DNA from: Thiobacillus sp. 65-29 | GTDB taxonomy: Bacteria; Pseudomonadota; Gammaproteobacteria; Burkholderiales; Thiobacillaceae | Assembly (NCBI GenBank): GCA_001899775.1 | Contig: MKWN01000003.1 | Location: forward strand, 1 to 64,000 | Reading direction: 5' to 3' | Length of the DNA stretch: 64,000 nt | Notes under the pieces: model-generated | What the model saw: only the letters and a program-made list of their open reading frames with translations | The model's database searches: none | Told to the model about the DNA's origin: nothing | Position numbers and translations under genes: made by a program | In this document: piece after piece, positions 19,280-61,186 of the stretch | Layout of the letters: every line of letters starts with the position of its first letter | How positions within the stretch are numbered: position 1 is the first letter of the stretch

Positions 19280-19512
19280 CCTAAAAACCTCAGTTGGACG
19301 CGCCCGATGGTGCGTCGGATCGCGTGCCTGCCGCGAAGCAACGACGCCGCAGGCCGGGGCCTGCAAGGAGGCGCGACAAAGGCAGGCGCGTGAGCCGACG
19401 TGCCAGCGGGCGTGTAGCGGTTTCACCCAACCGGTGAAGGTGAGCAAGGCACAAAAGCCAGCATTCATATGACGTCGGCAGGAGCATGGAGCGGTCAACT
19501 GAGGTTTTTAGG
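19280..19512 (+). mobile_element. MITE-like element, copy 1
   Basis: 233 bp with terminal inverted repeats CCTAAAAACCTCAGTTG and flanking 5-bp direct repeats TTGAA (19275-19279 and 19513-19517). No transposase. It matches the elements at 58589 and 60953: the left 130 bp is nearly identical to copy 3, the right 60 bp is more diverged. The right end carries AGGAG and an outward-reading ATG (19486) that runs through the terminal repeat into the ABC permease frame. Confidence 0.88.
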
Positions 19513-20781
19513 TTGAAGCCTGCTGTTGATACCGGCAAGGGCCTGGGGTCGACCTTCGGCTTCCTGCGGGTCGATTCGCGGCTCGCCCTGCGCAACGTGC
19601 TGCGCCAGAAGCGGCGCAGTTACATCGCGATTCTGGCGATCGCCTTCGGCGTCGTGGCGATGATGCTGTCCGCCGGCTTCATCGAATGGATCCTGCAGGA
19701 AACCCGCGAGGATGCCATCGCCAACCAGTACGGGCACATCCAGATCATCAGGCCCGGCTACCACGACGACGGGCAGGCCGATCCCTTCGCCTTTCTCCTC
19801 CCCGGTAACGATCCCGCGCTGACCGTGCTCGCCCGCACCTCCGGTGTCGCAAGCGTGGCGCCGCGTCTGCAATTCACCGGTCTGGTCAGCCATGGCGACA
19901 GCACGCTGTCCTTCATCGGCGAGGGCGTCGACCCGGCGAAGGACCCGGCGCTGCGCAACCTGCATGTCGTCAAGGGAAAGCCGCTCGGCCAGGGCGATGG
20001 CCGCGGAATCCTGATGGGCGTGGGGCTGGCCGACAATCTGGGCGTCCAGGTCGGCGACACCGTGGTGTTGCTCGTCAATACCCCGAGCGGCGGCATCAAT
20101 GCCGTCGAGGGCACGGTCATCGGCCTGACCTTCACCGCGATGAAAGCGCTCGACGATTCCGTCCTGCGCATCTCCATCGACATGGCGCGCGAACTCCTGC
20201 GCGTTTCCGGATCGCATGTGTGGGTGACGACACTGGAACACACCGGGATGACCGATGCCGTACTCGCCCGGCTGAAGGCCGAGAACGCGTTCCGCACCTA
20301 TGAAATCGTGCCCTGGAGCAAGCTCGCGGACTTCTACAACAAGACCGTCGAGCTTTTTTCCAGGCAGATCGGTGTGGTCAAGCTCATCATCGCCATCATC
20401 ATCGTGCTGGGTATCAGCAACACCATGACCATGAACGTCATGGAACGCACGGTGGAGATCGGAACCGCCATGGCCCTGGGTGTCAGGCGACACCGAATCC
20501 TCGTACTGTTCCTGCTGGAAGGTCTGCTGGTCGGCCTGCTGGGCGGCGCCATCGGCATCACGGTCGGCTATCTGCTCGCGCTTGCCGCCTCGGCAATCGG
20601 TATTCCCATGCCGCCTGCACCGGGCATGACCGAAGGATTCGACGCCGCCATCATCGTCACGCCGCGCATCGTCCTGGATGCGCTGGCCCTTTCCGTCACG
20701 ACCACGCTGGCGGCCAGCATCTACCCGGCGTGGCGGGCCTCGCGCCTGGTGATCGTCGAGGCGCTGCGCCACAACCGTTGA
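19486..20781 (+). CDS. ABC transporter permease, FtsX/LolC-MacB type (start altered by insertion)
   Basis: Inner-membrane permease of a MacB/Lol-type transporter. Membrane helix near the N-terminus (IAILAIAFGVVAMMLSAGF), a large periplasmic domain, then three C-terminal helices including the FtsX signature with NVMERTVEIGTAMALG. The mobile element at 19280-19512 lies between the original ATG (19269) and the body of the gene. The only in-frame starts left are ATG 19486 inside the element, giving N-terminus MERSTEVFRLKPAVD (431 aa), and TTG 19513 in the target duplication. The AGGAG before 19486 is very close (1 bp). Original length was about 424 aa. Confidence 0.85.
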   Translation: MERSTEVFRLKPAVDTGKGLGSTFGFLRVDSRLALRNVLRQKRRSYIAILAIAFGVVAMMLSAGFIEWILQETREDAIANQYGHIQIIRPGYHDDGQADPFAFLLPGNDPALTVLARTSGVASVAPRLQFTGLVSHGDSTLSFIGEGVDPAKDPALRNLHVVKGKPLGQGDGRGILMGVGLADNLGVQVGDTVVLLVNTPSGGINAVEGTVIGLTFTAMKALDDSVLRISIDMARELLRVSGSHVWVTTLEHTGMTDAVLARLKAENAFRTYEIVPWSKLADFYNKTVELFSRQIGVVKLIIAIIIVLGISNTMTMNVMERTVEIGTAMALGVRRHRILVLFLLEGLLVGLLGGAIGITVGYLLALAASAIGIPMPPAPGMTEGFDAAIIVTPRIVLDALALSVTTTLAASIYPAWRASRLVIVEALRHNR

Positions 20782-20792
20782 GCATCCCGCCC

Positions 20793-22004
20793 ATGTGGAA
20801 ACTTGCCCTGCGAAATGTCCTGCGCCACAAGAGCCGCACCGGCATGACCCTGCTCGCCATCGTCACCGGCGTGGCGGGCCTGATTCTCAGCGGTGGCTTC
20901 ATCCACGACATCATCGAGCAGTTCGGCGAGAGCCTGATCCATTCGCAGACCGGTCATCTCCAGCTCGCGCGCAACGGCTATTTTGCCCACGGAACACGCA
21001 GCCCCGAAAAATACGTCATTGCCGATCCGACGCCCGTGCGCGACGCGATCGCCAAGACGAAAGGCGTGGATGACGTCATGGGCAGGCTGTACTTTTCGGG
21101 CCTGCTCAACAACGGCCGCTCGGACCAGCCCGTGGTGGGCGAAGGGGTCGAACCCGCGCGCGAGGCGCGCCTCGGCACCGGCATGGTCATCGCCGCAGGC
21201 CGCATGCTGCAGGACGCGGACAGCCACGGCATGATGATCGGCCAGGGGCTCGCCCACACCCTGAAACTGCAACCCGGTGATTTCGCCACCGTCGTGACGA
21301 ACACCGCCGACGGTGCCATGAACAGCCTCGAATTCGAAGTCGTCGGCGTGTTCCAGACCTTTTCCAAGGACTACGATGCGCGGGCCGTGCGCATCCCGCT
21401 GGCCGCCGCCCAGGAATTGCTCGCCACGCCCGGGATCAATATCCTCGTCGTCTCCCTGCGCCATACCAACGACACACGCCCGGTGGCGTCCGCGCTCGGC
21501 CCGGTCCAGCGGGCGTCAGGCCTGGAGATCAGGACCTGGGTGGAACTCAACGACTTCTATACCAACGCCGTCGCCATGTACGAAGCGCAGTTCGGCGTGC
21601 TGCAGGTCATCATCCTGCTGATGGTGCTGCTGAGCGTGGTCAACAGCGTCAACATGACCGTCTTCGAACGGGTCGGCGAATTCGGCACCATGATGGCCCT
21701 GGGTAACCGCAGCCGCATGGTGTTTCGCCTCATCGTCGCGGAAAGTGCCATCCTGGGGCTGGCGGGAGCGGGGCTGGGCGTTGCCCTGGGTGTCGTCCTC
21801 GCATGGGTCATCTCCGCCGTCGGCATTCCCATGCCGCCGCCGCCCAACGCGGACCTGGGCTACATCGCCCGCATCCAGGTCGTGCCTTCGGTCGCTGCCG
21901 GCGCCTTCGCGGTGGGACTGTTCGCCAGCGTCCTGGCCGCCCTGCTGCCGGCCGCGCGGGTGCGCACGATCCCGGTGGTGGACGCGCTGCGCCAGAACAT
22001 CTGA
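20793..22004 (+). CDS. ABC transporter permease, FtsX/LolC-MacB type
   Basis: Paralogue of the preceding permease, 403 aa, starting MWKLALRNVLRHKSRTG. N-terminal helix, periplasmic domain, three C-terminal helices with TVFERVGEFGTMMALGN. ATG 20793 is chosen because the family begins this way; the open frame extends upstream without support. 11 bp after the first permease, so the two are probably made together and form a heterodimer with the ATPase at 23579. Ends 10 bp from the convergent DUF1302 gene. Confidence 0.9.
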   Translation: MWKLALRNVLRHKSRTGMTLLAIVTGVAGLILSGGFIHDIIEQFGESLIHSQTGHLQLARNGYFAHGTRSPEKYVIADPTPVRDAIAKTKGVDDVMGRLYFSGLLNNGRSDQPVVGEGVEPAREARLGTGMVIAAGRMLQDADSHGMMIGQGLAHTLKLQPGDFATVVTNTADGAMNSLEFEVVGVFQTFSKDYDARAVRIPLAAAQELLATPGINILVVSLRHTNDTRPVASALGPVQRASGLEIRTWVELNDFYTNAVAMYEAQFGVLQVIILLMVLLSVVNSVNMTVFERVGEFGTMMALGNRSRMVFRLIVAESAILGLAGAGLGVALGVVLAWVISAVGIPMPPPPNADLGYIARIQVVPSVAAGAFAVGLFASVLAALLPAARVRTIPVVDALRQNI

Positions 22005-22014
22005 CGCCTGCGCG

Positions 22015-23577
22015 TCAGAAATCTCGCCGCAGTTCCGCGTACACCCGGTCGTTGGCGTCGTACTGGCCAAAAATGCCCGTCGGGGGTCCCTTGAAAATAT
22101 CGAGGCCGAACACCGCGCGCCAGTCGCGCTCGAATTTCCATGTCGCCTTGGGGCGCAGCAGCCAGTCGCTGCGGTTGAGGCTGCTGATCAGCAACACGTC
22201 CGCCTCCCAGCTGCGGGGCAGATCCCGATGCACCAGAATGGAAAACCCGTTCTCGAACCTGTCGAAATTGATGTCCGCTTCGTGATCGAAGTACACGCGC
22301 TGGAAGAACTGGGTGTTCAGGCGCGTGTCGGACGACGGATTGAAGTCCAGGCCCACGGCCCAGTCGAGTGTGTTCTGCGCCACCACGCCGTCGCTGTCGG
22401 TCAGGTTCGTCACGTTGAACTGCCGCCCGTCGGTGTACACCGCTTCCGCCTTGAGGACGAACGTACCGAGATCCTTCGCCAGCGTCCCGCCCGCCTGCCA
22501 GATGCGCTTGTGGACGGGTGTGAACACATTCTGCGCCGTCGCGTCGCGCAGGAAAGTGGGCGCGCTGTCCATGCTCGTATAGTAGAAACCCGACAGATCC
22601 CAGCCACCGACGAGGCGCGACAGGCGCACCCCGAAATTGGTGTGATCGAGCCCGTTGGCGGGTTTGACTTCCTTCCTGATGATCGGCATGCCGGCAGGTG
22701 ACAGGGGATACGGGTAGAAATCCGTTCCCGCACCCGGCCTGCCGGGGTCGAAGGGTTCACCGATCTCGTCGTATCCGGCGAACGGGATCCACACCAGCTC
22801 GGCATGGAAGTCGCCGCTGAAATACTCGCTGCGCACCGCCCATTGCGGAATGCGCAGGATCTGGAAATCGGGCAGGATGAATTCCCGCGAGTCCTTCACC
22901 GAAACCACGTCGGCGAAGAACAAACCGACCATCTCGCCCCATACGACATGCTGCCGGCCCACCCGCCACTCCCAGTCGCCGGTGGCGAAGTCGACGTAGG
23001 TCTCGCGCAGCTGCAAGCCCAGACGCTGCTTGTCGCCCACCCCCGAATGATAGAAGTCGGTCAGGTCGTACACCGGGTTGTAGTCGACACGACCGCTCAG
23101 TTTCCATTTGCCGCCCTGGCCAAACCGCCCTTCCGTGCCGAGCTCCAGGCGCCCCAACACCTTGGACCAGTGCCTCGGATCGCTATAGGTCCAGGCGAAC
23201 TCGCTCTGGAAGTAGCCGTACACCGGCATGCCCTGCGCGTCCCCGGCCTGCTTCTCCTGCTTCTCCGCCGGGCGCTCGTCGCCGAACAGGGCGTCGCGCG
23301 TGGCGGGCACGCCCGGCTCCGGCGCGGGCTGCGGCGTTTTTTCCGCCGGCGGCTCGAGCGCGAACAAGTCGTCCCGCGTTGCCGGCCTGGCCGGTTTTTC
23401 GCCTTCGTCGCGCGCAGCGGGTGCAAGCTCGAACAGCGCATTGCGCGACACGGGCAGCTCGATACCCTTGTCCGCGACGAAAATCCGCCCGCCGATGCCC
23501 TCGATCTGCCCAGCATGGCCCACAAGGGGGATGCTGCACGCCAGAAACCCCAGCGCCGGCACCAGCCGCTGTCTCAT
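22015..23577 (-). CDS. DUF1302-type outer-membrane beta-barrel protein
   Basis: 520 aa, signal peptide (cleavage near VGHA/GQ, about residue 22), a disordered proline/glutamate-rich linker, and from about residue 120 a long barrel-like region of alternating aromatic and polar residues ending in Phe (ELRRDF), as for outer-membrane porins. The linker holds three short repeats of (S/T)R(D/N)xLF at residues 44-49, 67-72 and 93-98. ATG 23577 has GGGAG 7 bp upstream and lies just after the ATPase stop. Probably the outer-membrane partner of the ABC/LolA-like set; substrate unknown. Confidence 0.8.
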   Translation of the reverse strand: MRQRLVPALGFLACSIPLVGHAGQIEGIGGRIFVADKGIELPVSRNALFELAPAARDEGEKPARPATRDDLFALEPPAEKTPQPAPEPGVPATRDALFGDERPAEKQEKQAGDAQGMPVYGYFQSEFAWTYSDPRHWSKVLGRLELGTEGRFGQGGKWKLSGRVDYNPVYDLTDFYHSGVGDKQRLGLQLRETYVDFATGDWEWRVGRQHVVWGEMVGLFFADVVSVKDSREFILPDFQILRIPQWAVRSEYFSGDFHAELVWIPFAGYDEIGEPFDPGRPGAGTDFYPYPLSPAGMPIIRKEVKPANGLDHTNFGVRLSRLVGGWDLSGFYYTSMDSAPTFLRDATAQNVFTPVHKRIWQAGGTLAKDLGTFVLKAEAVYTDGRQFNVTNLTDSDGVVAQNTLDWAVGLDFNPSSDTRLNTQFFQRVYFDHEADINFDRFENGFSILVHRDLPRSWEADVLLISSLNRSDWLLRPKATWKFERDWRAVFGLDIFKGPPTGIFGQYDANDRVYAELRRDF

Positions 23578-23578
23578 T

Positions 23579-24325
23579 TCACGTCTCCCGGTTTTCATGT
23601 GAATTGCGTCCCGTCCTGACCTGCTGCCAGCGGTCGTCCACCTTCACCGCCAGCTTGGCCAGGTGGCCGTCCTCGATGCGCACGAGACGGTCCGCCATGG
23701 CCATGACGCGCCGGTCATGGGTGGAAAATATGAACGTCGTCGCGTAGCGACGGTTGATTTCCTTCATCAGGTTCAGGATCTCCTGCCCCGTGCGGCTGTC
23801 CAGATTCGCGGTGGGCTCGTCCGCCAGCACGATACGCGGATTGATCGCCAGGGCCCGGGCGATCGCCACGCGCTGGCGCTGGCCGCCGCTCAACTGGTTG
23901 GGCACGTGATGGGCATACTTCTCCAGGCCCACCAGCGCAACATAGCGCCGGACCCGCTCACGCCGCTCGATCCTGTCGACCTCGGGCAATTGCAGCAAGG
24001 GATATTCAACGTTCTCCGCCACGTTCAGCACGGGGAACAGGTTGAAGGTCTGGAAAATGAAACCGATGGTCCGCGCGCGCAGATCCGCCAGGGCGTCGGA
24101 CGACAGCCCCGTGACTTCCCGGTCGTCGATGAACACCCTGCCCCGCGTCGGCGTGTCGATGCAGCCGATGATGTTCAGCAGCGTGGTCTTCCCGCTTCCC
24201 GAGGGGCCCGCAATGGCGAGGAACACCCCTTCCTCGATGGAGAGTGTGATATCGTGAAGCGCGGTCACCTTCTGTTCGCCAAGCAGGTATTCCTTGGCAA
24301 CCGCCTCGATACGCACCAGGCTCAT
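23579..24325 (-). CDS. ABC transporter ATP-binding protein, LolD/MacB type
   Basis: 248 aa nucleotide-binding subunit: Walker A GPSGSGKTT (about 39-47), Q-loop FQTFNLFPVLN, signature LSGGQRQRVAIARAL and Walker B RIVLADEP followed by TANLDS, the usual LolD/MacB ending. Expected partner of the two FtsX-type permeases at 19486-22004, although those are on the other strand. Upstream of and almost touching the DUF1302 gene, so the two form a minus-strand operon, divergent from the LolA-like gene 44 bp away. Confidence 0.93.
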   Translation of the reverse strand: MSLVRIEAVAKEYLLGEQKVTALHDITLSIEEGVFLAIAGPSGSGKTTLLNIIGCIDTPTRGRVFIDDREVTGLSSDALADLRARTIGFIFQTFNLFPVLNVAENVEYPLLQLPEVDRIERRERVRRYVALVGLEKYAHHVPNQLSGGQRQRVAIARALAINPRIVLADEPTANLDSRTGQEILNLMKEINRRYATTFIFSTHDRRVMAMADRLVRIEDGHLAKLAVKVDDRWQQVRTGRNSHENRET

Positions 24326-24369
24326 GGCTCTATCTTCGTATGGCGTCGCATCATTGGCAGGACTCCCAA

Positions 24370-25146
24370 ATGCGTAACAAATCCGTAGTCATCGCCGGCC
24401 TGCTGTGGGGCTGCCTGCTCTTCGCCGCATCCGTTCCCGGCACCCGCGCAGCGGAGGACGCTCCCGGCGAGGATCCCGTGGCGCGCGGGATCCTCGCCAA
24501 ATCCGACGAAATACGCTTTCCGGCCGAGGGGTTCCAGGTCGACATCGACATCAACAGCACGACCCCCGACGGCGAAACGGAAAAGCGGAAATACCGCGTC
24601 CTTTCGAAAGGCAACGAGAATTCCGTCGTCATGATACTTGAGCCCGCTGCCGAACGGGGCCAGATCATGCTCATGAAGGGCCGCGACCTGTGGGTGTTCA
24701 TGCCCAACGTGTCGCAGCCCATCCGCCTCGGGCTCGCGCAGCGACTGACCGGACAGGTGGCCAACGGCGACCTCGCGCGCGCCAACTTCAGCGGCGATTA
24801 TACGCCGCGCATCCTGCGCACCGAAAAGCTGCAGGGCGAGGAACAATACGTGCTGGAACTGCGCGCCGTCGACCGCGGCGTGACCTACCATCGCGTGCTG
24901 TACTGGGTGAACAAGTCCAACCACTGGCCACGCAAGGCGGAGTTCTACGGCGTATCGGGCCGCCTCATGAAGACCTGTCTCTACGAGAAATTCGAACTCA
25001 TGGCGGGCCAGAAGCGGCCGACCCGCCTGGTGATGGAGGACGGACTCAAGCCGGGGAACGTGTCGGTACTCGAGTACGACGACATGAAAATGCGCGACCT
25101 GCCGGACAAGGTGTTCTCCAAGGACTACCTGAAGAAACTGCAGTAA
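24370..25146 (+). CDS. LolA-like periplasmic outer-membrane lipoprotein-sorting protein
   Basis: 258 aa, signal peptide ending near TRAAE, then a LolA/LolB-fold protein of the PF17131 type (segments DLWVFMPNVSQPIRL, FSGDYTPRIL, YVLELRAVD, YWVNKSNHWPRKAEFYG). Such proteins carry a lipid or lipoprotein between an ABC transporter and the outer membrane. ATG 24370 precedes the basic start of the signal peptide; an ATG 10 codons upstream is in frame but less likely. Divergent from the ABC ATPase gene. Confidence 0.85.
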   Translation: MRNKSVVIAGLLWGCLLFAASVPGTRAAEDAPGEDPVARGILAKSDEIRFPAEGFQVDIDINSTTPDGETEKRKYRVLSKGNENSVVMILEPAAERGQIMLMKGRDLWVFMPNVSQPIRLGLAQRLTGQVANGDLARANFSGDYTPRILRTEKLQGEEQYVLELRAVDRGVTYHRVLYWVNKSNHWPRKAEFYGVSGRLMKTCLYEKFELMAGQKRPTRLVMEDGLKPGNVSVLEYDDMKMRDLPDKVFSKDYLKKLQ

Positions 25147-25182
25147 CGCGCCGCGGACCGGACCTGAACCGAGGGGAGTCCC

Positions 25183-26019
25183 ATGCAAGTCGTCCTCATT
25201 ACCCTGGCCGCGACGCTGCTGATCCAGTGCGGCTATTTCCTGTGGAAGCTGACCGCCGACGCGCTGCCCGAGGTGGGCAAGGCGCCCCTGCCGGCGCTCA
25301 TCGCAGGCTTCCTTGGCAACGCCAAGTGGACGCTCGGGCTGATCGCCACCATCGTCGGCTGGCTGCTGTTCATCAAGGCCACCGACTTGGGCGAGATCAG
25401 CGTGGTGCAGCCGCTGATGTCGGTCGGCGACGTGTTCCTCGTCATCCTCGCCGTGACCTTCCTGCACGAACGGCTCACGCGCGGCGAATGGCTGGGCCTC
25501 GCCATCACCGTGGCCGGCGCCGTCGCGCTGGCGTTCGAAGCCGAGGTCACGACACCCGCCGGCATCGCCTGGCCGCGGCTCGCGCTCTTCCTTGCCATCG
25601 TGCTGGCTGCGGGGGCATTCATGCTGGTGCGGGGCTGGCGCAGCCGGCACGGAGAAGTGCCGCTCGCCATTGCGGTCGGCATCGGGTTCGGCCTCGGCGC
25701 GGTGCTGACCAAGCTGATGACGGCGTACATCGCCCTCGGTGGCATGGAACTGGAATCGTCGGCCTTCGTGCTCAATCCCATCCTGCCGTTCATGATCCTC
25801 GCCAACGTGGCGGGGCTTGTCCTGCTTCAGGTGGCGTTTCAGCGCGGGCGCGCCGCGGTGATCGTGCCGGTGCAGCTTTCCGTCGTCAACGGCATCGTGG
25901 TGCTGTCGGGTTATCTGGTTTTTGCCGAGACGCTCGCCGGGTCCCGGCTGTTCGCCATCGCACTCATCGTCCTGGGCACAGCCTGGCTGCATGCCGCCGC
26001 GCCGGAGCGGCACGCCTGA
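25183..26019 (+). CDS. EamA/DMT-family transporter
   Basis: 278 aa, about ten membrane helices in two EamA repeats (about 1-130 and 150-275), each with the glutamate-bearing helix end typical of the drug/metabolite superfamily (VTFLHERLTRGEWLG and YLVFAETLAGSRLF). Substrate unknown. Good ribosome-binding site GGGGAG. 36 bp after the LolA-like gene on the same strand. Confidence 0.85.
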   Translation: MQVVLITLAATLLIQCGYFLWKLTADALPEVGKAPLPALIAGFLGNAKWTLGLIATIVGWLLFIKATDLGEISVVQPLMSVGDVFLVILAVTFLHERLTRGEWLGLAITVAGAVALAFEAEVTTPAGIAWPRLALFLAIVLAAGAFMLVRGWRSRHGEVPLAIAVGIGFGLGAVLTKLMTAYIALGGMELESSAFVLNPILPFMILANVAGLVLLQVAFQRGRAAVIVPVQLSVVNGIVVLSGYLVFAETLAGSRLFAIALIVLGTAWLHAAAPERHA

Positions 26020-26104
26020 ACCGGCAAGCGCCAGCGGAACCCACATCCTTCGCACCGCCGGGCGCGGACCTGCCCATCGGGTTCGCGAACGAGGCAGGGA
26101 TCAA

Positions 26105-26130
26105 TAAAAAAAGCAGCCCTTACGGGCTGC
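26105..26130 (-). terminator. Intrinsic terminator of the PEP-CTERM gene
   Basis: On the minus strand, GCAGCCC / GGGCTGC form a 7-bp stem (26124-26130 with 26113-26119) with a GTAA loop, followed by a run of eight T (A on plus at 26105-26112). It lies 25 bp past the stop of the PEP-CTERM gene. Confidence 0.85.
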
Positions 26131-26155
26131 CTTTCTGCTGCCAGAATCAGTGGAT

Positions 26156-27139: not shown

Positions 27140-27193
27140 GATTTTCTCCATGTTGAATTGCTCGGGCCGCAATGTGCGGACACACCAAACGAA

Positions 27194-27208
27194 GCACGTG
27201 TCGTGCCA
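27194..27208 (-). promoter_or_regulatory. Sigma-54 promoter of the first PEP-CTERM gene
   Basis: On the minus strand: TGGCACGACACGTGC, with exact -24 TGGCACG and GG-N10-GC spacing (GTGC at -12). Predicted start near 27182, about 43 nt before the ATG at 27139. The promoter at 41625 has the same pattern, both continuing into TT after the -12 GC. Confidence 0.8.
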
Positions 27209-27313: not shown

Positions 27314-27321
27314 GGAATGGA

Positions 27322-33372: not shown

Positions 33373-33477
33373 ACAGACGATTTGCATCGTCTCCCGCTTC
33401 TCCTCCCTGAGCGGGCTGCCTTAATCCCCTTAAGGCACCTTTGCCCCGATCCCTTCCCTTGATCGGGGCTTTTTATT
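33373..33477 (+). ncRNA. Candidate small RNA with C-rich loops
   Basis: In the 161-bp gap between the hemB start and the engB stop, the plus strand holds four consecutive perfect hairpins: AGACGAT/ATCGTCT (33375-33392), CCCGCT/AGCGGG with loop TCTCCTCCCTG (33393-33415), GCCTTAA/TTAAGGC with loop TCCCC (33418-33436), and a terminator (33444-33468). Neither neighbour runs on this strand. The C/U-rich loops resemble sRNAs that pair with Shine-Dalgarno sequences. TATCTT at 33367-33372 could be a weak -10; no good -35. Exact 5' end unknown. Confidence 0.5.
33444..33477 (+). terminator. Rho-independent terminator with no plus-strand gene before it
   Basis: CCCCGATC/GATCGGGG stem (33444-33451 with 33461-33468), loop CCTTCCCTT, then CTTTTTATT. 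The T-run overlaps the stop codon of the convergent engB. There is no matching T-run on the minus strand, so it works for plus-strand transcription, supporting a small RNA gene here. Confidence 0.8.
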
Positions 33478-42457: not shown

Positions 42458-42620
42458 GGAGGTTTCCGGACGCACTGCCAGGCGCGCGCGTCCGGGATTC
42501 TCAGTACCCCGTTTCTCGGCGCCGGGAAGGCGCCTTCAATCACAGATTGCCGAACGCGACCGGAACGTGAACTGCGCTACCGGACGGGCCCGCACGACAC
42601 TTGTGCGGCAAAGTCGCAGC

Positions 42621-42727
42621 ACCGTTGCGGGAGTGCGCATGCACGCCACACCAACCGAAGGTGCAAGCGCCCGGAATCGCTCAGGAAAAAGGATCGCAAG
42701 GCCGGAACGGGTCCCGTTCCGCAACAC
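42621..42727 (+). promoter_or_regulatory. Solitary glycine-riboswitch aptamer without a downstream gene
   Basis: In the 378-bp gap 42400-42777. It closely matches aptamer 1 of the gcvT riboswitch: GTTGCGG (42624-42630) pairs with CCGCAAC (42719-42725) as P1, and the conserved core ACCGAAGG...GGAATCGCTCAGG...AAGGATCGC is intact. There is no second aptamer and no T-tailed hairpin. The matching region upstream has CAAAGT where gcvT has the -10 TATAGT. The next gene is on the other strand, so nothing obvious is controlled; it may be a relic or part of an antisense transcript. Confidence 0.75.
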
Positions 42728-44187: not shown

Positions 44188-44192
44188 TCTGC

Positions 44193-44430
44193 CACCGTTG
44201 CGGGAGAGTGCGTGCATCGCATGCCGCCGAAGGCGCAAGCACCCGGAATCGCTCAGGCAAAAGGATCGCAACGCCAGGACGGACCCCGTCCTGCAACACT
44301 CTGGAGAGCGCAGTCGTTTGCGACTGCCACCGAAGGGGCAGCGGCTGCCGGTTGCGTGATCGGCCGACCGTAATCTCTCAGGTACCAAGGACAGAGGGGT
44401 GAGGCGCATCCGCGCTTCGCCCTTTATTAT
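44193..44430 (+). promoter_or_regulatory. Tandem glycine riboswitch with terminator-like platform
   Basis: Aptamer 1 (44194-44297) and aptamer 2 (44297-44398), each with the class signature (GGAGAG ... CCGAAGG ... CTCAGG ... AAGGA). The platform GGGTGAGGCG (44397-44406) pairs with CGCTTCGCCC (44413-44422) and is followed by TTTATTATT: a terminator-like hairpin whose 5' arm uses the GGGT at the end of aptamer 2 P1. Glycine binding should therefore disfavour it and turn on gcvT, as expected for a catabolic operon. Confidence 0.92.
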
Positions 44431-53062: not shown

Positions 53063-53098
53063 ACTTTTTTCAGGTTGATTGACCAAAGGACTCCTGCA

Positions 53099-53557: not shown

Positions 53558-53708
53558 GCCCGAAAATCACGGCGACGGCGCCGCTCCGGAGTGCGGCCGC
53601 GAACGCCTGCTTATCCCCGGCCGCCTGTCATCGTTTCGCAATCTCCGCGTCACACCGGGGTCACGCCACAACCCCAAACTCACGGCATTCCATTGACGGG
53701 AGTGCCCC

Positions 53709-54458
53709 ATGCTCGACGTTCGCAGAACCCTCCAGCCGGCGCTTACCGGTCGTTACCATGTTTCACTGGCGGTGGACGACAGCGAAATCCGTGAGGCGCA
53801 GCGCCTGCGTTACAAGGTGTTCGCCGAGGAAATGGGCGCCCGCCTGGCTTCACCGCTGCCCGGCCACGACATCGACCTGTACGATCCGTTCTGCGACCAC
53901 CTGCTCCTGCGCGAGCTCGACGGCGGCGAGTTGATCGGTACCTATCGCATCCTGCCGCCCGACGCTGCGCGGCGCGTCGGCGGCTATTATTCCGAGCAGG
54001 AATTCGACCTCACCCGGCTGCATTGCCTGCGCCCGCGCATGGCCGAACTGGGACGCTCGTGCGTGCATCCGGCACACCGCGGCGGCACGGCCGTCACCCG
54101 CCTGTGGCGCGGACTGGCCGATTACATGATGCGCTACGGTTATGAATACCTGGTCGGCTGCGCCAGTATCGGCATGGCCGACGGCGGGCACCTCGCGGCG
54201 GGCGTACATCGCCAGCTCGCGGAACGCCAGTTGGCGCCGATCGAATGGCGCGTCACCCCGCGCACGCGCCTGCCCGTGGAGTCGCTCGACAACGGCCAGC
54301 CGGTCGCGCTGCCGCCGCTCATCAAGGGCTACATGCGCGCTGGCGCCATGCTGTGCGGGGAGCCGGCATGGGATCCCGACTTCAACACCGCCGATTTGCT
54401 GCTGCTGTTGCCGATGCAGCAGCTTGACCGTGCCTACGCCCGCCACTTCATGGGGTAG
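53709..54458 (+). CDS. olsB: Ornithine lipid N-acyltransferase OlsB-like (GNAT)
   Basis: 249 aa acyltransferase: RLRYKVFAEEMGA (about 37-49), LIGTYRILPPDAA and AELGRSCVHPAHRGG are typical of OlsB, which makes lyso-ornithine lipid from ornithine and 3-hydroxyacyl-ACP. Directly followed by a PlsC-type O-acyltransferase 16 bp away, the classic olsB-olsA pair. Confidence 0.85.
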   Translation: MLDVRRTLQPALTGRYHVSLAVDDSEIREAQRLRYKVFAEEMGARLASPLPGHDIDLYDPFCDHLLLRELDGGELIGTYRILPPDAARRVGGYYSEQEFDLTRLHCLRPRMAELGRSCVHPAHRGGTAVTRLWRGLADYMMRYGYEYLVGCASIGMADGGHLAAGVHRQLAERQLAPIEWRVTPRTRLPVESLDNGQPVALPPLIKGYMRAGAMLCGEPAWDPDFNTADLLLLLPMQQLDRAYARHFMG

Positions 54459-54474
54459 GCCGTACAATGCCGGC

Positions 54475-55269
54475 GTGATCCTCACCCGCGCGCCCGTCCT
54501 GATTCGCCGTATCGTCCGCCTCGCCCTGCTCACCCTGCACACGGCGACGGGCGTGGTGCTCGCGGCACTGGCGCTGCCCTGGCTCGGCGCGCGCCAGCGC
54601 GATACGCTGATCGTGGCATGGTCGCGCATGCTGCTCGGACTGCTGGGCGTGCGCGCCATCGTCGCCCCTGCGCCCACGGTGCCTGGCGGCGCGCTGCTGG
54701 TGTGCAACCACGTCTCGTGGCTCGACATCTTTGTCATCCTCCTCGGCCGCCGCGTGCACTTCGTCTCCAAATCCGAGGTGCGCGCCTGGCCGATGGCGGG
54801 CTGGCTCGCACACCAGGCCGGCACACTGTTCCTCGAACGCGGCCGCCGCGCCGACACGCTGCGCATCAACGCCGATATGGCCGCGCTGCTGCAGGACGGC
54901 GCGTGGGTCGCGGTGTTCCCGGAGGGCACCACCAGCGACGGTCGCACCCTGCGCCGTTTTCTCCCCTCGCTGCTGCAACCGGCGGTGGACCTGGACTGTC
55001 CCGTCGTGCCGGCGGCGCTGCGCTATCGCACGCTCGACGGCGCCTACAGTGCCGCCCCGGCCTATGTCGACCGGATGAGCCTGTGGCGCAGCCTGCTCGC
55101 CATCACCGGCGCGCCCGGCCTCGTCGCCGAGCTGCGCTTCGGCGAACCCATCCCGCCCAACGGCCACCGGCGCGATCTCGCGGCGGCGGCGGAAGCGGCG
55201 ACGGCTAGCCTTTTGGGGATTGCGCCTGCGGACACGGCACCGCGAACACCTGGCGGTCCTCCAGTCTGA
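54475..55269 (+). CDS. olsA: Lyso-ornithine lipid O-acyltransferase OlsA-like (PlsC family)
   Basis: 264 aa from GTG 54475. N-terminal membrane helix, then NHVSWLDIF (HX4D) and [10 protein letters not shown] acyltransferase motifs. Completes ornithine lipid next to olsB, though a role as 1-acylglycerol-phosphate acyltransferase is not excluded. Its last 65 bp overlap the end of the convergent apaH gene. Confidence 0.85.
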
Positions 55270-56026
55270 ATGCCGTCAGGCCGCCACCCCACAGGCAGCC
55301 GGTGTCGAGCGCGACGAGCTCGGGTCGATTGACCAGCCCGAGCGTCGACCAGTGGCCGATGATGAGCGTCGCGTCCGCAGTCCTGCGCCCCGGCGCCTCG
55401 AACCACGGCAGCCAGCCCGCGGGCTGCGTGCCCGGCGCGCCCTTGTAGTGAAATTCCATTTCGCCCGCGGCGGAGCAGTAGCGCAAGCGCGTGAAGGCGT
55501 TGACGATCACGCGCAGGCGCTCGATCCCGCCGAGCGCATCGTCCCACGCCACGGGCACGTTGCCGTACATCTGCCGGAAGAATTCCACGTAGTGCGGTCC
55601 ATGCAGCACCGCCTCTACCTCCGCCGCGCGGGCGAGCGTGTCGTCCACACTCCATTGCGGCAGCACCCCGGCATGCACCATCAGATAACCGTCCTCGCGC
55701 CAGGCGAGCCTGCGATGGCGCAGCCAGTGCATCAGTTCGTCGCGGTCCGGCGCCGCCAGCACGGCATCGAGCGTGTCGCCCTTGTAGATCCGGCCAAAGC
55801 CCTCCGCCAGCGCCAGGAGGTGCAGATCGTGGTTGCCGAGCACACATACCGCGGCCTCGCCCAGGTCCCGGACGCTGCGCAACACCGCAAGCGAATCCGG
55901 CCCACGGTTGACCAGATCACCGACAAACCACAGGCGGTCGGCGGCTGGATCGAAGCGGATGGCATCGAGCAGACGCAGGAGGGAAGCATGGCAGCCCTGG
56001 ATGTCGCCAATGGCATAGGTGGGCAT
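55205..56026 (-). CDS. apaH: Symmetrical bis(5'-nucleosyl)-tetraphosphatase
   Basis: 273 aa, hydrolyses Ap4A to two ADP. Metallophosphoesterase motifs GDIQG (7-11), GDLVNRG and GNHD, then distal GHWSTLG. ATG 56026 begins [13 protein letters not shown], as in the family; upstream frame to 56158 is unsupported. 3' end overlaps olsA tail to tail. Confidence 0.93.
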
Positions 56027-56193
56027 ATAAAATACGGGTTCGTTTGCGTTGTGTAAGCCTGTATCCGTCGTTCCAGCGCAGGCCGGAACCCGGTCGGTCA
56101 AGCCACCAAACCCCGGTGTCTGTCGGGGTGGCGACTTGCCCGCGTCCATTCGCATCATAACGCCCCGCCCGAACCTGCCGTAAAGCCCACGCC

Positions 56194-56586
56194 ATGAAAC
56201 CCCTGATCCGCCTGTTCTTCCGCACCCTCCGCCTTGTCCTCACCCCCTTCGTGCTGCTCGGCTATGCGATCACCCGGCCGCGCGGCATCGCGCGCACGCC
56301 CGAGGCGCAGGCTGCGGTCGACGCGCGCACCCGCACGCTGGCCCTCTATCACTTCCCGACCTGCCCGTTCTGCCTCAAGGTGCGCCGCGCCATGCGTCGC
56401 CTGTCGCTCGATATCGAACTGCGCGACGCGCGCCATGAAGGCCCGCACCGCACGGCACTGATCGCCGGCGGCGGCAAGCCACAGGTGCCCTGTCTCGCCA
56501 TCACCGGCGAGGACGGCACCGTGACATGGCTGTACGAGTCGGACGCCATCATCGCCTGGCTCGACCGCGAATTCGGCGCGGCATGA
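56194..56586 (+). CDS. Membrane-anchored glutaredoxin/GST N-domain-like protein
   Basis: 130 aa. N-terminal hydrophobic helix (about 8-24), then a thioredoxin fold with active-site CPFC (about residues 57-60), the cis-Pro segment KPQVPCL, and [11 protein letters not shown]. Overlaps the rep start by 4 bp. Redox target unknown. Confidence 0.85.
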
Positions 56587-58568
56587 CCCTGCTCGCCGCA
56601 CTCAACCCGCCGCAGCGCGAAGCCGCGAAATACCTCGACGGCCCCTTGCTGGTGCTGGCCGGCGCCGGCTCGGGCAAGACGCGCGTCATCACCCACAAGA
56701 TCGCCTATTTAATTGGGGAATGCGGCTACAAGCCCGGCTCGATCGCCGCCATCACCTTCACCAACAAGGCCGCACGCGAGATGGCCGAGCGCGCCGCCAA
56801 GCTGACCTCAAACGTCAACACCAAGGGTCTCATCGTCACCACCTTCCACTCGATGGGATTGCGGATGCTGCGTGAGGACGCCAGGTTCGCCGAGCTGAAA
56901 CCGGCCTTCTCCATTCTCGATTCCGCCGACGCCGCCGGCATCGTCTCGGAAATCCTCAAGACCACCGACAAGCAGGAAATCCGCCGCGCGGTCTCGCGCA
57001 TCTCGTTGTGGAAGAACGAACTGAAGTCACCTGCCGCCGCGCTTGCTGCGGCCGAGGACGACAACGCGCGCGTCTATGCCAAAATCTACGACCGCTATGA
57101 CGCCACCCTGCGCGCCTACCAGGCGGTCGATTTCGACGACCTGATCCGTCTGCCGGCGGAACTGCTGGACGCCCATGCCGCGCTGCGTGAGAAGTGGCAG
57201 AACCGCCTGCGCCACATCCTCGTCGACGAATACCAGGACACCAACGTCGCGCAATATCGTCTGCTGCAGAAGCTCACCGGCGTGCGCGCCGCGTTCACCG
57301 CAGTGGGTGACGACGATCAGGCGATCTACGGCTGGCGCGGCGCCTCGGCCGACAACCTGCGCCAGTTGCGCGACGACTACCCGCACCTGCACGTGGTCAA
57401 GCTGGAGCAGAATTACCGCTCGACGGTGCGCATCCTCAAGGCCGCCAACGCCCTCATCGCCAACAATCCCAAGCTGTTCGAGAAGCGCCTGTGGAGCGAG
57501 CTTGGCGTCGGCGACCCGATCCAGGTGCTGCCTGCCGCGCGCGACGACGAGCACGAGGCCGAGTCGGTGGTCATGCGCCTGCTCTCGCACAAGTTCCAGC
57601 ACCGCACCCGCTGGCGCGACTACGCCATCCTCTATCGCGGCAACTACCAGGCGCGCGTGTTCGAGCAGGCGCTGAGGAACGAGAAAGTGCCCTATCAGCT
57701 CTCCGGCGGGCAGTCGTTTTTCGACCGGACGGAGATCAAGGACGTCATCGCCTATCTGCGCCTGATCGCCAACGGCGACGACGATCCCGCCTTCATCCGC
57801 GCGGTCACCACACCGAAGCGCGGCATCGGCGCAGCGACGTTGGAAAAACTCGGCCAGGTCGCCGCCACGCTGCACGTCAGCCTGTTCGAGGCGGTATTCT
57901 CCGCCGCGGCCACGGCGCAGATCGGCGAGCGCCAGCTCGCGCCGCTCACCGAGTTCTGCCACTTCATCAACCGCTTCGAGGCGCGCGTGACGCGCGAACC
58001 CGCAGGCGAAGTGCTGAACGACCTGTTGCAGGCCATCGGCTACGAGGCGTACCTGTTCGACCAGGACGACGAACGCGCGGCGCAGACGCGCTGGAACAAC
58101 GTGCTCGAATTCGCCGCGTGGATCGCGAAGAAAGGCGAGGAAGACGAAAAGAACCTGTTGCAGCTCACCCAGACCATCGCGCTCATCACCCTGCTCGAAG
58201 GCCGCGAGGACGAGGAGCCCGACGCCGTACGCCTGTCCACCCTGCACGCCGCGAAGGGCCTCGAATTCGGCCATGTGTTCCTGGTCGGCGTCGAGGAGAA
58301 CATCCTGCCGCACCGCGACGCGGTCGACGAAGGCCGGCTGGAGGAAGAACGGCGCCTGATGTACGTCGGCGTCACCCGCGCGCAGAGATCGCTCACCCTG
58401 TCGCACTGCGCACGCCGCAAGCGCGCGCGTGAAACCGTCGCCTGCGAGCCGTCGCGCTTCATCGACGAACTCGGCGACGACGTACGCCAGCCGGCGCAAC
58501 CCGGCGACGCCGAAGCGAAGGCGCAAGGCAGCGACCGGCTGGCGGCGCTGAAGGCGATGCTGGGATAG
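56583..58568 (+). CDS. rep: ATP-dependent DNA helicase Rep
   Basis: 661 aa SF1A 3'-5' helicase. Motif I AGAGSGKTR, Ia TFTNKAAREM, II VDEYQDTN, III GDDDQAIYGWRGA, IV NYRST, V LSTLHAAKGLEF, VI YVGVTRAQ. Length and order match Rep rather than UvrD. Start ATG 56583 overlaps the glutaredoxin-like gene. A mobile element lies 20 bp after the stop. Confidence 0.93.
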   Translation: MTLLAALNPPQREAAKYLDGPLLVLAGAGSGKTRVITHKIAYLIGECGYKPGSIAAITFTNKAAREMAERAAKLTSNVNTKGLIVTTFHSMGLRMLREDARFAELKPAFSILDSADAAGIVSEILKTTDKQEIRRAVSRISLWKNELKSPAAALAAAEDDNARVYAKIYDRYDATLRAYQAVDFDDLIRLPAELLDAHAALREKWQNRLRHILVDEYQDTNVAQYRLLQKLTGVRAAFTAVGDDDQAIYGWRGASADNLRQLRDDYPHLHVVKLEQNYRSTVRILKAANALIANNPKLFEKRLWSELGVGDPIQVLPAARDDEHEAESVVMRLLSHKFQHRTRWRDYAILYRGNYQARVFEQALRNEKVPYQLSGGQSFFDRTEIKDVIAYLRLIANGDDDPAFIRAVTTPKRGIGAATLEKLGQVAATLHVSLFEAVFSAAATAQIGERQLAPLTEFCHFINRFEARVTREPAGEVLNDLLQAIGYEAYLFDQDDERAAQTRWNNVLEFAAWIAKKGEEDEKNLLQLTQTIALITLLEGREDEEPDAVRLSTLHAAKGLEFGHVFLVGVEENILPHRDAVDEGRLEEERRLMYVGVTRAQRSLTLSHCARRKRARETVACEPSRFIDELGDDVRQPAQPGDAEAKAQGSDRLAALKAMLG

Positions 58569-58588
58569 CAGGTCCCACGCAAAGTGAT

Positions 58589-58822
58589 CCTAAAAACCGC
58601 AGTTGACCGCTCCATCCCCTTGCGAACATCGCATGAACACTGAACCTTCAGGCTTCATTCGCCTTCACCTGTTGGGTGAGACCGCTACGCACCCGCTGGC
58701 ACGCCTGCTCACGCGCCTGCCTTTGTCGCGCCTCCTTGCAGGCCCCGGCCTGCGGCGTCGTTGCTTCGCGGCAGCCACGCGATCAGACGTACCATCGGGT
58801 GCGTCCAACTGCGGTTTCTAGG
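58589..58822 (-). mobile_element. MITE-like element, copy 2
   Basis: 234 bp, inverted relative to copies 1 and 3. Ends CCTAAAAACCGCAGTTG and, at the right, CAACTGCGGTTTCTAGG (one substitution). Flanks GTGAT (58584-58588) and ATGAT (58823-58827): a 5-bp target duplication with one difference. It occupies most of the 323-bp gap between rep and the DUF3617 gene; no coding is expected. Confidence 0.88.
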
Positions 58823-58891
58823 ATGATGGACAAGCCGCACGCGAACTGGAAACATCGGCGCGTGTCCGTGTCCACCCACAAGGAGCCCTTC

Positions 58892-59443
58892 GTGAAAAAA
58901 ATCCTCTCCATCCTCGTTCTCGGTTTTTTCGCGACCCCCGCGCCGGCCGCCGACATGAAACCCGGCCTGTGGGAAATCAAGACCCTCAGGCAGGTTGTCG
59001 ACGGTCAGGACATCCACGCGCAGATGCAGGCCATGCAGAAGCAGCTGGCGGCGCTGCCCGCAGCGCAGCGCAAGCAGATGGAGGCGATGATGGCGGGCCA
59101 GGGGGTCGGCATGAGCGACAGCGGCGCGGTGCGCATCTGCATCAGCGAGGAAGCGGCGCGCCGCAACGCGCCGGTGATCGACCCCAAGGGCGAGTGCCAG
59201 CCCAGGATGCTCACGCGCAGCGGCAACACCGTGCGCTTCGAGATCGACTGCACGATGGACGGGCGCCGCACCCAGGGCAAGGGTGAAAGCACCTTCTCCG
59301 GCGACAGCGTGCACTCGCGCATGGACATGACGACGACGGGTCCCGACGGTCACCACAGCATGCAGACGGAATCGCGGATGACCTATCTCGGCCCCGATTG
59401 CAAGGGACTCGCGCCGCTGGGAGGCAAGGCGAAAGCCAGGTGA
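58892..59443 (+). CDS. Exported DUF3617-family protein
   Basis: 183 aa from GTG 58892 (AGGAG 6 bp upstream; VKKILSILVLGFF signal, cleaved after PAPAA). The mature part begins DMKPGLWEI, the hallmark of DUF3617; it has an Met/Gln-rich stretch (HAQMQAMQKQLAALP) and four Cys in the C-terminal half. Function unknown; periplasmic. The longer frame to 58676 starts inside the mobile element. Convergent with the CBS gene 12 bp away. Confidence 0.85.
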   Translation: MKKILSILVLGFFATPAPAADMKPGLWEIKTLRQVVDGQDIHAQMQAMQKQLAALPAAQRKQMEAMMAGQGVGMSDSGAVRICISEEAARRNAPVIDPKGECQPRMLTRSGNTVRFEIDCTMDGRRTQGKGESTFSGDSVHSRMDMTTTGPDGHHSMQTESRMTYLGPDCKGLAPLGGKAKAR

Positions 59444-59455
59444 GGCCAGTGTGCC

Positions 59456-59857
59456 TCAGAACTGGCACAGGCCACCGAACACCAGATTGGCGAGGCTGAC
59501 GATACCCATCACCTTGCCCGTCTCGATCACCGGCGCGCGGCTGAGGTCGAAGCGGGTGAACAGTCGCGCGCAATAGCGGATGTCCATCTGCGGCGGCACG
59601 GCGAGCACCGGCTTGGCGCTGATCTCGTAGACGTTGACCCGTTCCGGCGCACGATCCTTGCCCAATACCTGGCGCGCGATGTCGGACGCGAGCAGGAGGC
59701 CGTACTCGTCATCGGCATGGCGCTTGTCGACGATCAGGCATTCGGCCTCGTGCTGGCACATCAGCGCCAGCGCCTCGCTCACCATGGCCATGCCGTCGAT
59801 GGTATGAAAGCGGGGGTTCATCACTTCGCCAACCCGCACGATCCTGGGTGCACTCAT
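59456..59857 (-). CDS. CBS-domain pair protein
   Basis: 133 aa, two CBS motifs in tandem (VGEVMNPRFHTIDGM and VLAVPPQMDIRYCARLF...GIVSLANLV). Small adenosine-ligand sensor type. Its start overlaps the PII-like gene stop by 4 bp, so it is the last gene of the DUF1538 operon and probably gates that membrane system. Confidence 0.88.
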   Translation of the reverse strand: MSAPRIVRVGEVMNPRFHTIDGMAMVSEALALMCQHEAECLIVDKRHADDEYGLLLASDIARQVLGKDRAPERVNVYEISAKPVLAVPPQMDIRYCARLFTRFDLSRAPVIETGKVMGIVSLANLVFGGLCQF

Positions 59858-60204
59858 AGCTTGTCCTCCACCACCGGGTTCAGTTGCCGCATCTGCTGGG
59901 CGAGACCGATCGCGTCCTCCACATCGAGCTGAAAGGCGATGCCGGTTCCCGGCGTGCCGTCGAATTCACCGATCTCGGCGATCCGTTCCAGAATGGCGCG
60001 CGCCAGATGCTCTTCAACGAGGAACAGCACCATGTCGCGCTGCGCTTCCACCGCGAGACCAAAAAAAGTGCGCGCCGGCCTGGCGCCTTCACCGCGCGCC
60101 TGACTGACCACGGTGGCACCCGTGGCGCCCGCGGCGCGCGCCGCGCGGATCACCGCGTCGGTCTTGTCATCATCCACCAGGGCGATCAGCAGCTTGAAAT
60201 GCAT
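59854..60204 (-). CDS. PII-like regulatory protein (divergent)
   Basis: 116 aa from ATG 60204 with AAGGAGG. PII fold (MHFKLLIALVDDDKTDAVIR, VVSQARGEG, then FLVEEHLARAILERI). The T-loop is short and has no tyrosine for uridylylation, and the C-terminal ATP-site residues of GlnB are not obvious; it belongs to the PII-like group that works with one membrane partner. Here that partner should be the DUF1538 pair. Confidence 0.82.
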   Translation of the reverse strand: MHFKLLIALVDDDKTDAVIRAARAAGATGATVVSQARGEGARPARTFFGLAVEAQRDMVLFLVEEHLARAILERIAEIGEFDGTPGTGIAFQLDVEDAIGLAQQMRQLNPVVEDKL

Positions 60205-60214
60205 GTTGCCTCCT

Positions 60215-60952
60215 TCATGAAATTTCGCCACGTCGTGCGCGCCACGCCGCCAGTTGCGCGTAACCCATCACGGTGAGCGCAGGACCCGCGGCGGTGACGG
60301 CGAGCAGGCCGAAGCCGTCCGCAGCGCCGCCACCCTCCAGACGGTTCGCCACACCAAGCCCCACCGCCACCAAGAGCGGCGCGGTGACCGTGGAGATGGT
60401 CACCACGCCGGCATCCAGTGCCAGATTGATCACCCGGCGCGGGGTCGCGCGCGCCTGCAGATATAGGACGACGAACAGCGTGGCGAGCAGCGGAAACAAG
60501 GGCACGCCGAGCCGCATGCGCAGCAGGCCGAGGCAGGCGCCCAGACCGATACCGCTGGCCACGGCGACGCGCAGCCCCCAGGGCCGGATCGCGCCCGCAG
60601 ACAACTGCGCGGCACGGTGCGCCACCGCCGTCAGCACCGGCTCGGCGAGCGCCGCCGCGAAGCCGAGTACGCCAAGAAACAGGTAAAGCCGCGCCACGCC
60701 CGTTCCGGGCGTCTCGCCTGCGGCAGCCGTCAGCGTACCCGCCACCTCGCCGCCGAGCGGAAACACCAGGGTTTCCAGACCATACAACACCAGGGCCAGA
60801 CCCGGCACCAGCATGCAAAGACCAATGAGCACACGCGCCGGCCGGCGCAGCGGGCGGCGCAGCAGCGCACCCTGAAACACTGCGAGCACCACGGCGATCG
60901 GCAGCAGGTCGCGCAGCACGGCCAGCAGCACGCGTGCGGCGTGGGCAATCAT
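60215..60952 (-). CDS. DUF1538 membrane protein (second of pair)
   Basis: 245 aa, about six to seven membrane helices: GLETLVFPLGGEVAGTL, then small-residue helices, ending TAAGPALTVMGYAQL. Begins at ATG 60952 (MIAHAARVLLAVLRDLLPI), directly at the edge of the mobile element; longer frames start inside it. Without the element, its ATG overlapped the stop of the first DUF1538 gene by 4 bp. In many bacteria two DUF1538 units are fused in one protein. Transport function suspected, substrate unknown. Confidence 0.85.
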   Translation of the reverse strand: MIAHAARVLLAVLRDLLPIAVVLAVFQGALLRRPLRRPARVLIGLCMLVPGLALVLYGLETLVFPLGGEVAGTLTAAAGETPGTGVARLYLFLGVLGFAAALAEPVLTAVAHRAAQLSAGAIRPWGLRVAVASGIGLGACLGLLRMRLGVPLFPLLATLFVVLYLQARATPRRVINLALDAGVVTISTVTAPLLVAVGLGVANRLEGGGAADGFGLLAVTAAGPALTVMGYAQLAAWRARRGEIS

Positions 60953-61186
60953 CCTAAAAACCGCAGTTGGACGCGCCCGATGGTGCGTCGGATCGCGTGC
61001 CTGCCGCGAAGCAACGACGCCGCAGGCCGGGGCCTGCAAGGAGGCGCGACAAAGGCAGGTGCGTGAGCCGGCGTGCCAGCGGGTGCGTAGCGGTCTCACC
61101 CAACAGGTGGCGGGGAACAAAGCCTGAAAATTCACCGTTCATACGATGTCCGTAAGAGAATGGAGCGGTCAACTGCGGTTTTTAGG
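60953..61186 (+). mobile_element. MITE-like element, copy 3
   Basis: 234 bp with perfect ends CCTAAAAACCGCAGTTG / CAACTGCGGTTTTTAGG and perfect 5-bp target duplication ATCAT (60948-60952 and 61187-61191). Inserted exactly in the ATGA overlap between two operon genes; the duplication supplies each gene with its own copy of the shared bases, so neither is damaged. Confidence 0.9.

Follow-up and report, generated by a model that had tools for sequence, protein, structure and literature searches.

A miniature element of Thiobacillus carries a hairpin conserved on one strand, whose tip recurs between other terminal repeats

Three copies of a miniature element in the window

The window, a stretch of 64,000 nucleotides on contig C3 of Thiobacillus sp. 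65-29 (genome G000; 2,896,222 bp in 61 contigs), contains three copies of a short element with 17-bp inverted ends. Copy 1 (233 bp, ends CCTAAAAACCTCAGTTG) is located at 19280..19512 and copy 3 (234 bp), which served as the reference copy, at 60953..61186, both with the structured strand on the plus strand of the window; copy 2 (234 bp) is inverted and occupies 58589..58822 on the minus strand. The elements, which are likely moved by an IS1380-like transposase, carry a hairpin that is conserved on one strand, and the tip of this hairpin recurs in elements with different ends. A first reading of the window from its letters alone (hereafter the sequence-only reading) had placed all three copies at gene boundaries, and the calls of neighbouring genes bear this out. 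Copy 1 is separated by 16 bp from a preceding TPR gene and is followed by an FtsX/MacB-type gene, copy 2 is flanked by a UvrD-type helicase gene and a DUF3617 gene, and copy 3 is found between two DUF1538 genes.

The copies are enclosed by target duplications of 5 bp. These read TTGAA on the left (19275..19279) and right (19513..19517) of copy 1, GTGAT (58584..58588) and ATGAT (58823..58827) around copy 2, where the two differ by one base, and ATCAT on both sides of copy 3 (60948..60952 and 61187..61191). The coordinates, the 17-bp ends and the flanks that had been read from the sequence could be reproduced for all three copies. At copy 3, on the minus strand, the left duplication contains the start codon (ATG) of the downstream DUF1538 gene and the right duplication the stop codon (TGA) of the upstream one. 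Joining the flanks of copy 3 with a single duplication yields CGATGATTG on the coding strand, which points to an overlapping stop and start (ATGA) as the target. The duplication left each DUF1538 gene with its own start/stop copy, and both reading frames are unbroken. For the FtsX/MacB-type gene, the longest reading frame (window 19486-20781) begins inside copy 1, the end of which may supply the start codon and the first residues (MERSTEVFR) of this gene. Annotated proteins that span such repeats are possibly spurious.

Copies in the genome and their target site

A search of the whole genome with the end and the body of the element, as proposed by the sequence-only reading, gave 42 BLAST pieces for the body and 56 matches to the 17-bp end at two or fewer mismatches, compared with 0 forward matches and 1 reverse match for a reversed-pattern control. 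The set of two-ended elements with a length of 200 bp or more has 23 members, which range from 213 to 429 bp and measure exactly 234 bp in 11 cases; pairings of 527 bp and 106 bp with poor ends, a 54-bp mini-element and truncated pieces stand outside this set. Being short, multi-copy, provided with inverted ends and without a transposase gene, the 23 copies have the characteristics of miniature inverted-repeat transposable elements (MITEs). Across the genus, a BLAST match to the element was obtained in 49 of 56 genomes, and the end was present at one or no mismatch in 38 of the 56, with none in the control columns. Copies inside one genome are very similar to each other.

Length variation among the copies of the own genome is accounted for in part by inserts of 57 and about 138 bp, which occupy two fixed places of the hairpin. 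Insert-bearing copies include C47:71211-71639, C38:100918-101289, C29:63697-64068, C33:111850-112140 and C43:17867-18157, and one copy of 429 bp holds both inserts. A different insert of about 50 bp was observed at one of these two places in another genome (G086, locus L275). Two further arrangements were seen in the own genome: two adjoining elements (L066, C24:5728-6135) with ATAAT (5840-5844) alone between them, as if one duplication were shared, and the 54-bp mini-element (L084, C40:26210-26263), in which the two ends are nearly adjacent.

Tabulation of the 5-bp flanks, likewise proposed beforehand, revealed identical flanks in 16 of the 23 elements and a one-base difference in 4 more, while the chance rate of identical flanks, estimated from random 234-bp intervals of the window, is 0.0019. 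Together with the partner insertion sequences described below, this upholds the earlier view that the copies are true insertions of a non-autonomous element. The target motif of that reading, NTGAW, had to be replaced. A palindromic NTNAN with a free centre fits 44 of 46 flanks in the own genome, against a window background of 0.027, and several of the 16 identical pairs, among them ATAAT (six times), ATTAT, CTAAG and TTTAA, contain no TGA on either strand. In a genus sample of 68 flank pairs, 25 were identical, 20 had one mismatch and 23 had two or more, and NTNAN was present in 122 of 136 flanks. Older copies thus keep the NTNAN target, though their duplications have decayed or were exchanged.

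Comparison with relatives covered the site of copy 2. The element is absent from this site in G046 and G047, where spacers of about 87 and 80 bp separate the matched flanks as opposed to about 305 bp here, the spacers being too diverged for a base-exact empty site. In G045, another repeat is present at the site.

Partner insertion sequences in related genomes

Within the own genome, PF13701 matched only a sub-threshold fragment, which lies off contig C3; a 121-aa query gave no match there, and no intact partner insertion sequence (IS) was found. The longer element that the sequence-only reading had expected, with the same ends around a transposase gene, does exist in other genomes. In G046, the end CCTAAAAACCTCAGTTA borders the C-terminus of a transposase (one IS end), and at least five such IS ends are present in G045, where contig ends truncate the IS. 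Scanning with the transposase fragment of G046 identified 28 loci with relatives of the partner transposase in named genomes, the hosts including Dechloromonas, Thauera, Accumulibacter and others. Both ends could be assigned at 16 of the 28 loci, and 10 of these 16 ISs are exactly 1648 bp long. They are flanked by identical 5 bp in 11 of 16 cases and by NTNAN in 32 of 32 flanks, and their ends, which begin with CCT at both sides in all 16, are nearly the same as those of the MITEs. The base at end position 11, T or G, differs between the two ends of single ISs (L147, L149, L150, L151).

The transposase of L140 (Dechloromonas agitata) scored 136.6 bits with the IS1380 model NF033539 over positions 6-416 (411 of 419), the best result among five families, and it exceeded the Pfam cut-offs for PF13701 (56.7 versus 34.7 bits) and PF01609 (58 versus 23 bits). 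Because 136.6 bits is under the curated cut-off of 180 bits for NF033539, we refer to the partner as IS1380-like only. A second IS of the IS1380 type in G045 (L123), with different ends (CCTAAAATAATT), was not taken as the partner. In G076, a 134-bp element with similar ends and TTGAT on both sides (L133, 1388-1521) was observed inside a relative of the partner transposase gene.

A covarying hairpin conserved on one strand

The conserved hairpin (model R1, 123 positions) extends over 19297..19419 on the plus strand in copy 1, 58683..58805 on the minus strand in copy 2 and 60970..61092 on the plus strand in copy 3. The strand on which it is described (the named strand) folds in copy 3 with an energy of -128 kcal/mol (z-score -8.0), a value reached by 0 of 200 shuffles, and the opposite strand with -101.5 kcal/mol (z-score -4.3). 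For analysis of covariation, the three window copies were aligned with those 64 of 68 two-ended genus elements that measure 225-240 bp (67 sequences in total). Of the cells in the 37 pairs of the inner hairpin, 98.7% are paired, and 16 of these 37 pairs have changed on both sides. Columns 69/91, for example, are C-G in 41 and G-C in 24 sequences, and columns 75/86 are A-U in 46, G-C in 16 and C-G in 4. On each of five measures of covariation, none of 500 shuffles reached the observed value, and sliding the partner by 1-3 columns lowered pairing to 22-50%. With covariation beyond both the shuffles and the slid controls, the hairpin resembles a structured RNA in this respect. Rfam gave no match for copy 3 at expectation values (E) up to 10; for ten related loci a single match at E of 1 or less was returned, to a microRNA family, with 24.8 bits against a gathering threshold of 69 and away from the core. 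The sequence-only reading had described the element itself and its non-autonomous nature, and this part stands; the one-strand fold and the carriers with other ends were absent from it, being visible only with other genomes.

The two strands are not equivalent. The RNAalifold consensus has -87.1 kcal/mol on the named strand versus -36.1 kcal/mol on the complement, and for all 67 cores the named strand is the more stable one. Where Watson-Crick pairs form the majority (32 inner pairs), departures comprise 86 G-U versus 10 A-C cells, counted as cells that are not independent events, and in the remaining five inner pairs G-U is the commonest state. In unpaired columns the balance is reversed (C to T 133, G to A 284), and the excess of G-U is thus not accounted for by mutation bias. 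Class-wide, 44 of 46 loci fold better on the named strand, an outcome to which the energy rules themselves contribute in part, because they favour G-A steps.

The orientation of the element relative to genes was also analyzed. Using a hexamer-based call on flanks of 350 bp and 300 bp, the structured strand was antisense in 42 and sense in 5 tandem gene pairs of Thiobacillus, drawn from 91 elements of which 15 lie between convergent or divergent genes, 25 were uncalled and 4 were too short. The first hexamer-based call had given 24 antisense versus 4 sense pairs.

The apical module and its carriers

The tip of the hairpin, referred to as the apical module (model R2, 64 nt), is located at 19325..19388 (plus strand) in copy 1, 58714..58777 (minus strand) in copy 2 and 60998..61061 (plus strand) in copy 3. 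Its hallmark is a tandem G-A step formed by columns 67-68 with 92-93, with 63 G-A and 64 A-G among 66 distinct sequences, with the single pairs 66/94 and 69/91, which covary, on either side of it. In the next step (columns 64-65 with 95-96), the outer pair is G-A in 24 and A-C in 33, and the inner pair A-G in 60. When tips were parsed by pattern (64 of 94), the single pair between the G-A steps was G-C in 32, C-G in 24, A-T in 3, G-T in 2, T-G in 2 and a mismatch in 1; the first step was GA/GA in 50 tips and the second in 64, the left GA of the latter being required by the pattern.

A covariance model of the hairpin (R1, built from 54 sequences) matched in 39 of 399 genomes and 22 of 158 genera of the order, which we take to be Burkholderiales, in the class Gammaproteobacteria, as defined by GTDB. 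Many of these loci share the end type of the Thiobacillus elements and are flanked by NTNAN. In others, the core lies between different repeats: AACCTATCCCAGTAGG in G171, G378 and G406, flanked on either side by CTTAG or CTAAG in L287, L291 and L293; GGGC(C/G)TGTT.ACAC-like repeats in G290, G294, G324, G205 and G162; repeats starting GGAACCTCTGA or GGGAGCCTCTG in G145, G393, G152 and G237; and CTAACAGAATGAAACACG in G204. No end repeat was found in 3 of the 33 loci of the set with other or no ends. A sequence-only profile built from the Thiobacillus copies alone detected the core, in the right direction, in all 33 loci, with E from 7e-7 to 1.9 (0.30 or less in 32 of 33) compared with 3.7 for the best reversed control. 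These matches mostly cover profile positions 29-110; the part common to the end types is the tip, and the outer stems differ. In L301-L306, L325 and L326, which have GGGC.TGTT ends, a second hairpin was observed beside the module-bearing one.

The R2 model of the tip, derived from 48 sequences of several end types, matched at E of 1e-4 or better in 44 of 369 genomes and 35 of 272 genera of the class, many genomes having several copies, with E-values that are rough and copy numbers that are lower bounds at this scale. An inverted repeat with a score of at least 13 encloses 20 of 26 R2 loci with long flanks, but 0 of 49 shifted control positions taken from these loci. Module carriers have at least six different terminal repeats and differing target duplications. 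Ends of the IS1380-like type occur, for example with TTAAA or TTCAA duplications (G778, G131), as do GGCCTGTTAACAC ends with CTAG on both sides in 3 of 4 loci (G712), GGGGCGTTCTCAATCACC ends with CTAG (G758) and CCCGTAGCGTTTGGG or CCCGTCACGGACAGG ends with TATA (G699, G698). The own genome harbours a second MITE family with the tip inside, 159 bp long with TGGTCTGCTTCCGAAATA ends and CTAG on both sides in 2 of 4 copies (L358-L361; C38:42546-42704, C38:55009-55167, C58:39729-39887 and C31:32500-32658). Among the genus matches listed for TGGTCTGCTTCCGAAATA ends, the pairings have the length of MITEs (141-221 bp), and a longer element was not recognised. Two plasmids, CP087967.1 of Polaromonas sp. 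P1-6 (68.5% identity) and NZ_CP084278.1 of Caballeronia grimmiae (73.6%), also carry distant copies of the element; such plasmid-borne copies are a possible route of spread.

Scanning 29 loci around IS1380-like transposases with R2, a set to which three further loci of the 28-locus transposase scan did not belong, gave no match at E 0.01. The apical module is thus no mere piece of the partner IS. One R2 match of 18.5 bits (E 0.04) was located in L121, outside the IS end.

Interpretation and alternative explanations

We consider it likely that the elements are MITEs moved by an IS1380-like transposase, which carry a one-strand-conserved hairpin with a structured module that acts, as RNA, on a factor common to many transposons. 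The structured module is probably an RNA carried by MITEs of several transposase families. According to this proposal, an IS1380-like DDE transposase would recognise the 17-bp ends in trans, cut at NTNAN and leave a 5-bp duplication. Given a fold that is demonstrably shared across end types, we infer the following job for the module. It would work as RNA from the structured strand, as suggested by the tolerance of G-U pairs, and it would act on something common to many transposons, such as a host RNA-binding protein, a nuclease or a repair step; a general target is proposed, rather than one transposase, because the module is coupled to different ends. If the orientation bias is real, its simplest reading would be that host messages do not tolerate the stable strand, and such harm would explain the mostly antisense position in tandem gene pairs.

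Several results weigh against this proposal. R1 scored up to 40.6 bits on the reverse complement of such hairpins, so R1 bits of 30-45 alone are no proof of homology, and the training set of R2 included several of the end types that the model then finds. The partner transposase is, judged from its model scores, IS1380-like and no certified IS1380 member. In 15 inner pairs chosen by RNAalifold on the other strand, 9 G-U were counted versus 14 A-C, so part of the bias results from choosing the structure on one strand; we take the one-strand bias to be real, though smaller than the raw ratio. With a cruder call based on the longest open reading frame, the orientation bias is not clear: antisense to sense was 2:1 in the own genome, 2:0 in the genus, 2:0 in the order and 6:4 in the class, with 13 of 23, 13 of 17, 17 of 24 and 14 of 26 loci uncalled, respectively. 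We claim the orientation bias for Thiobacillus only. Neighbouring genes mostly run antisense to the structured strand, so that no source of read-through is evident, and a scan of one region (60750-61400) revealed no promoter-like or terminator-like sites.

Alternatively, the structured strand might fold as a DNA hairpin when single-stranded in replication or transposition and be kept as an aid to excision, copying or repair. Strand bias by itself does not separate RNA from single-stranded DNA, no RNA source for the strand was found, and tandem G-A steps are stable in DNA too. However, the five inner pairs with G-U as the commonest state suit RNA better, and we know of no use of single strands in DDE transposition of the IS1380 kind; we regard a role of single-stranded DNA as rather unlikely. 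Less probable still is an ordinary MITE with a meaningless palindromic interior, in which template switching and gene conversion between copies mimic covariation. Two sources do describe long stem-loops as common among MITEs (PMC2229807, PMC10969869), and the high similarity of copies within a genome makes conversion plausible, but such an element would leave unexplained the 86 G-U versus 10 A-C departures with the opposite background, the five G-U-majority pairs, the conserved mismatched G-A steps and the same tip in elements with other ends.

The sequence-only reading had attributed T or G at both ends (T/T and G/G) to two subfamilies matched to different transposases. Copy 1, with T at both ends, accords with this, but it is alone in this respect among the 23 two-ended elements of the own genome, and single partner ISs combine a G end with a T end. 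Two such subfamilies are therefore rejected as very improbable. We give next to no credence to a conserved host RNA gene at fixed, non-mobile sites. The strong fold and covariation would suit such a gene; it is ruled out by the target duplications and by the absence of the element from the copy-2 site in G046 and G047, and the 23 two-ended copies at different sites, the partner ISs and the lack of an Rfam match for copy 3 likewise speak against it. Copies without duplications, or a conserved RNA at the same sites in all relatives, had been named beforehand as observations contrary to insertion; what was found instead were duplications at 16 of 23 copies and a copy-2 site free of the element in two relatives.

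Returning to the proposed RNA module, a more far-reaching view can be formulated, on which our judgement is evenly balanced. Here, a selfish structured RNA or single-strand domain of about 64 nt, with two tandem G-A steps set around covarying Watson-Crick pairs, would have been joined repeatedly to the ends of different DNA-transposon families and would have spread as a MITE core through the whole class, serving via something that many transposases share. If true, such MITEs would be RNA-assisted parasites and not passive deletion relics. MITEs are usually read as end-only leftovers, whereas a fold conserved on one strand, whose non-canonical steps are retained across end types, indicates that the interior is selected. 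This raises the question of what advantage a structured RNA or hairpin offers a parasite without genes, and to which host factor it binds. The R2 model provides a marker for finding such elements.

Comparison with known systems

No Rfam family had a meaningful score for the element. Elsewhere in the window, Rfam matches comprise an anti-hemB RNA (33390-33476) and three glycine riboswitch aptamers (42618-42706, 44191-44278 and 44291-44404), two of them in tandem. None of the matches listed for CCTAAAAACC in the open-licence literature concerned such elements. Within the same literature, no description was found of IS1380-linked MITEs, of Thiobacillus MITEs, of MITEs sharing a conserved RNA structure or of a module common to elements with different ends, and matches to four module words are apparently primers.

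The IS1380 family (NF033539; PF13701) is the best family match of the partner transposase, which also passes PF13701 and PF01609. Members of this family have ends starting with CCT and duplications of 4-5 bp. The difference is that the MITEs match the IS at their ends only and not in the interior, and that the IS loci gave no match to the module. Modular interiors of variable length are a feature of the BOX elements of pneumococcus, which by description alone resemble the present elements, where the hairpin accommodates inserts of 57 and 138 bp at two constant positions. According to PMC10813416, IS1380 transposases form the outgroup in piggyBac trees, and the TTAA targets of piggyBac are, as here, palindromic, A+T-rich and adjoin ends starting with CC; by description, the 4-bp TTAA differs from the 5-bp NTNAN of the present elements.

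In general form, the elements resemble Correia/NEMIS, ERIC, RUP and other bacterial MITEs, which are small and non-coding, have inverted ends and duplications, and give transcripts predicted as long stem-loops, as presented in PMC2229807 and PMC10969869. The same sources report that RUP has the same ends as IS630-Spn1 and that some bacterial MITE transcripts are cut by RNase III; the word IS1380 is absent from the main text of PMC10969869. Whereas these families have been described organism by organism, in the elements analyzed here one covarying module with non-canonical steps recurs across different ends.

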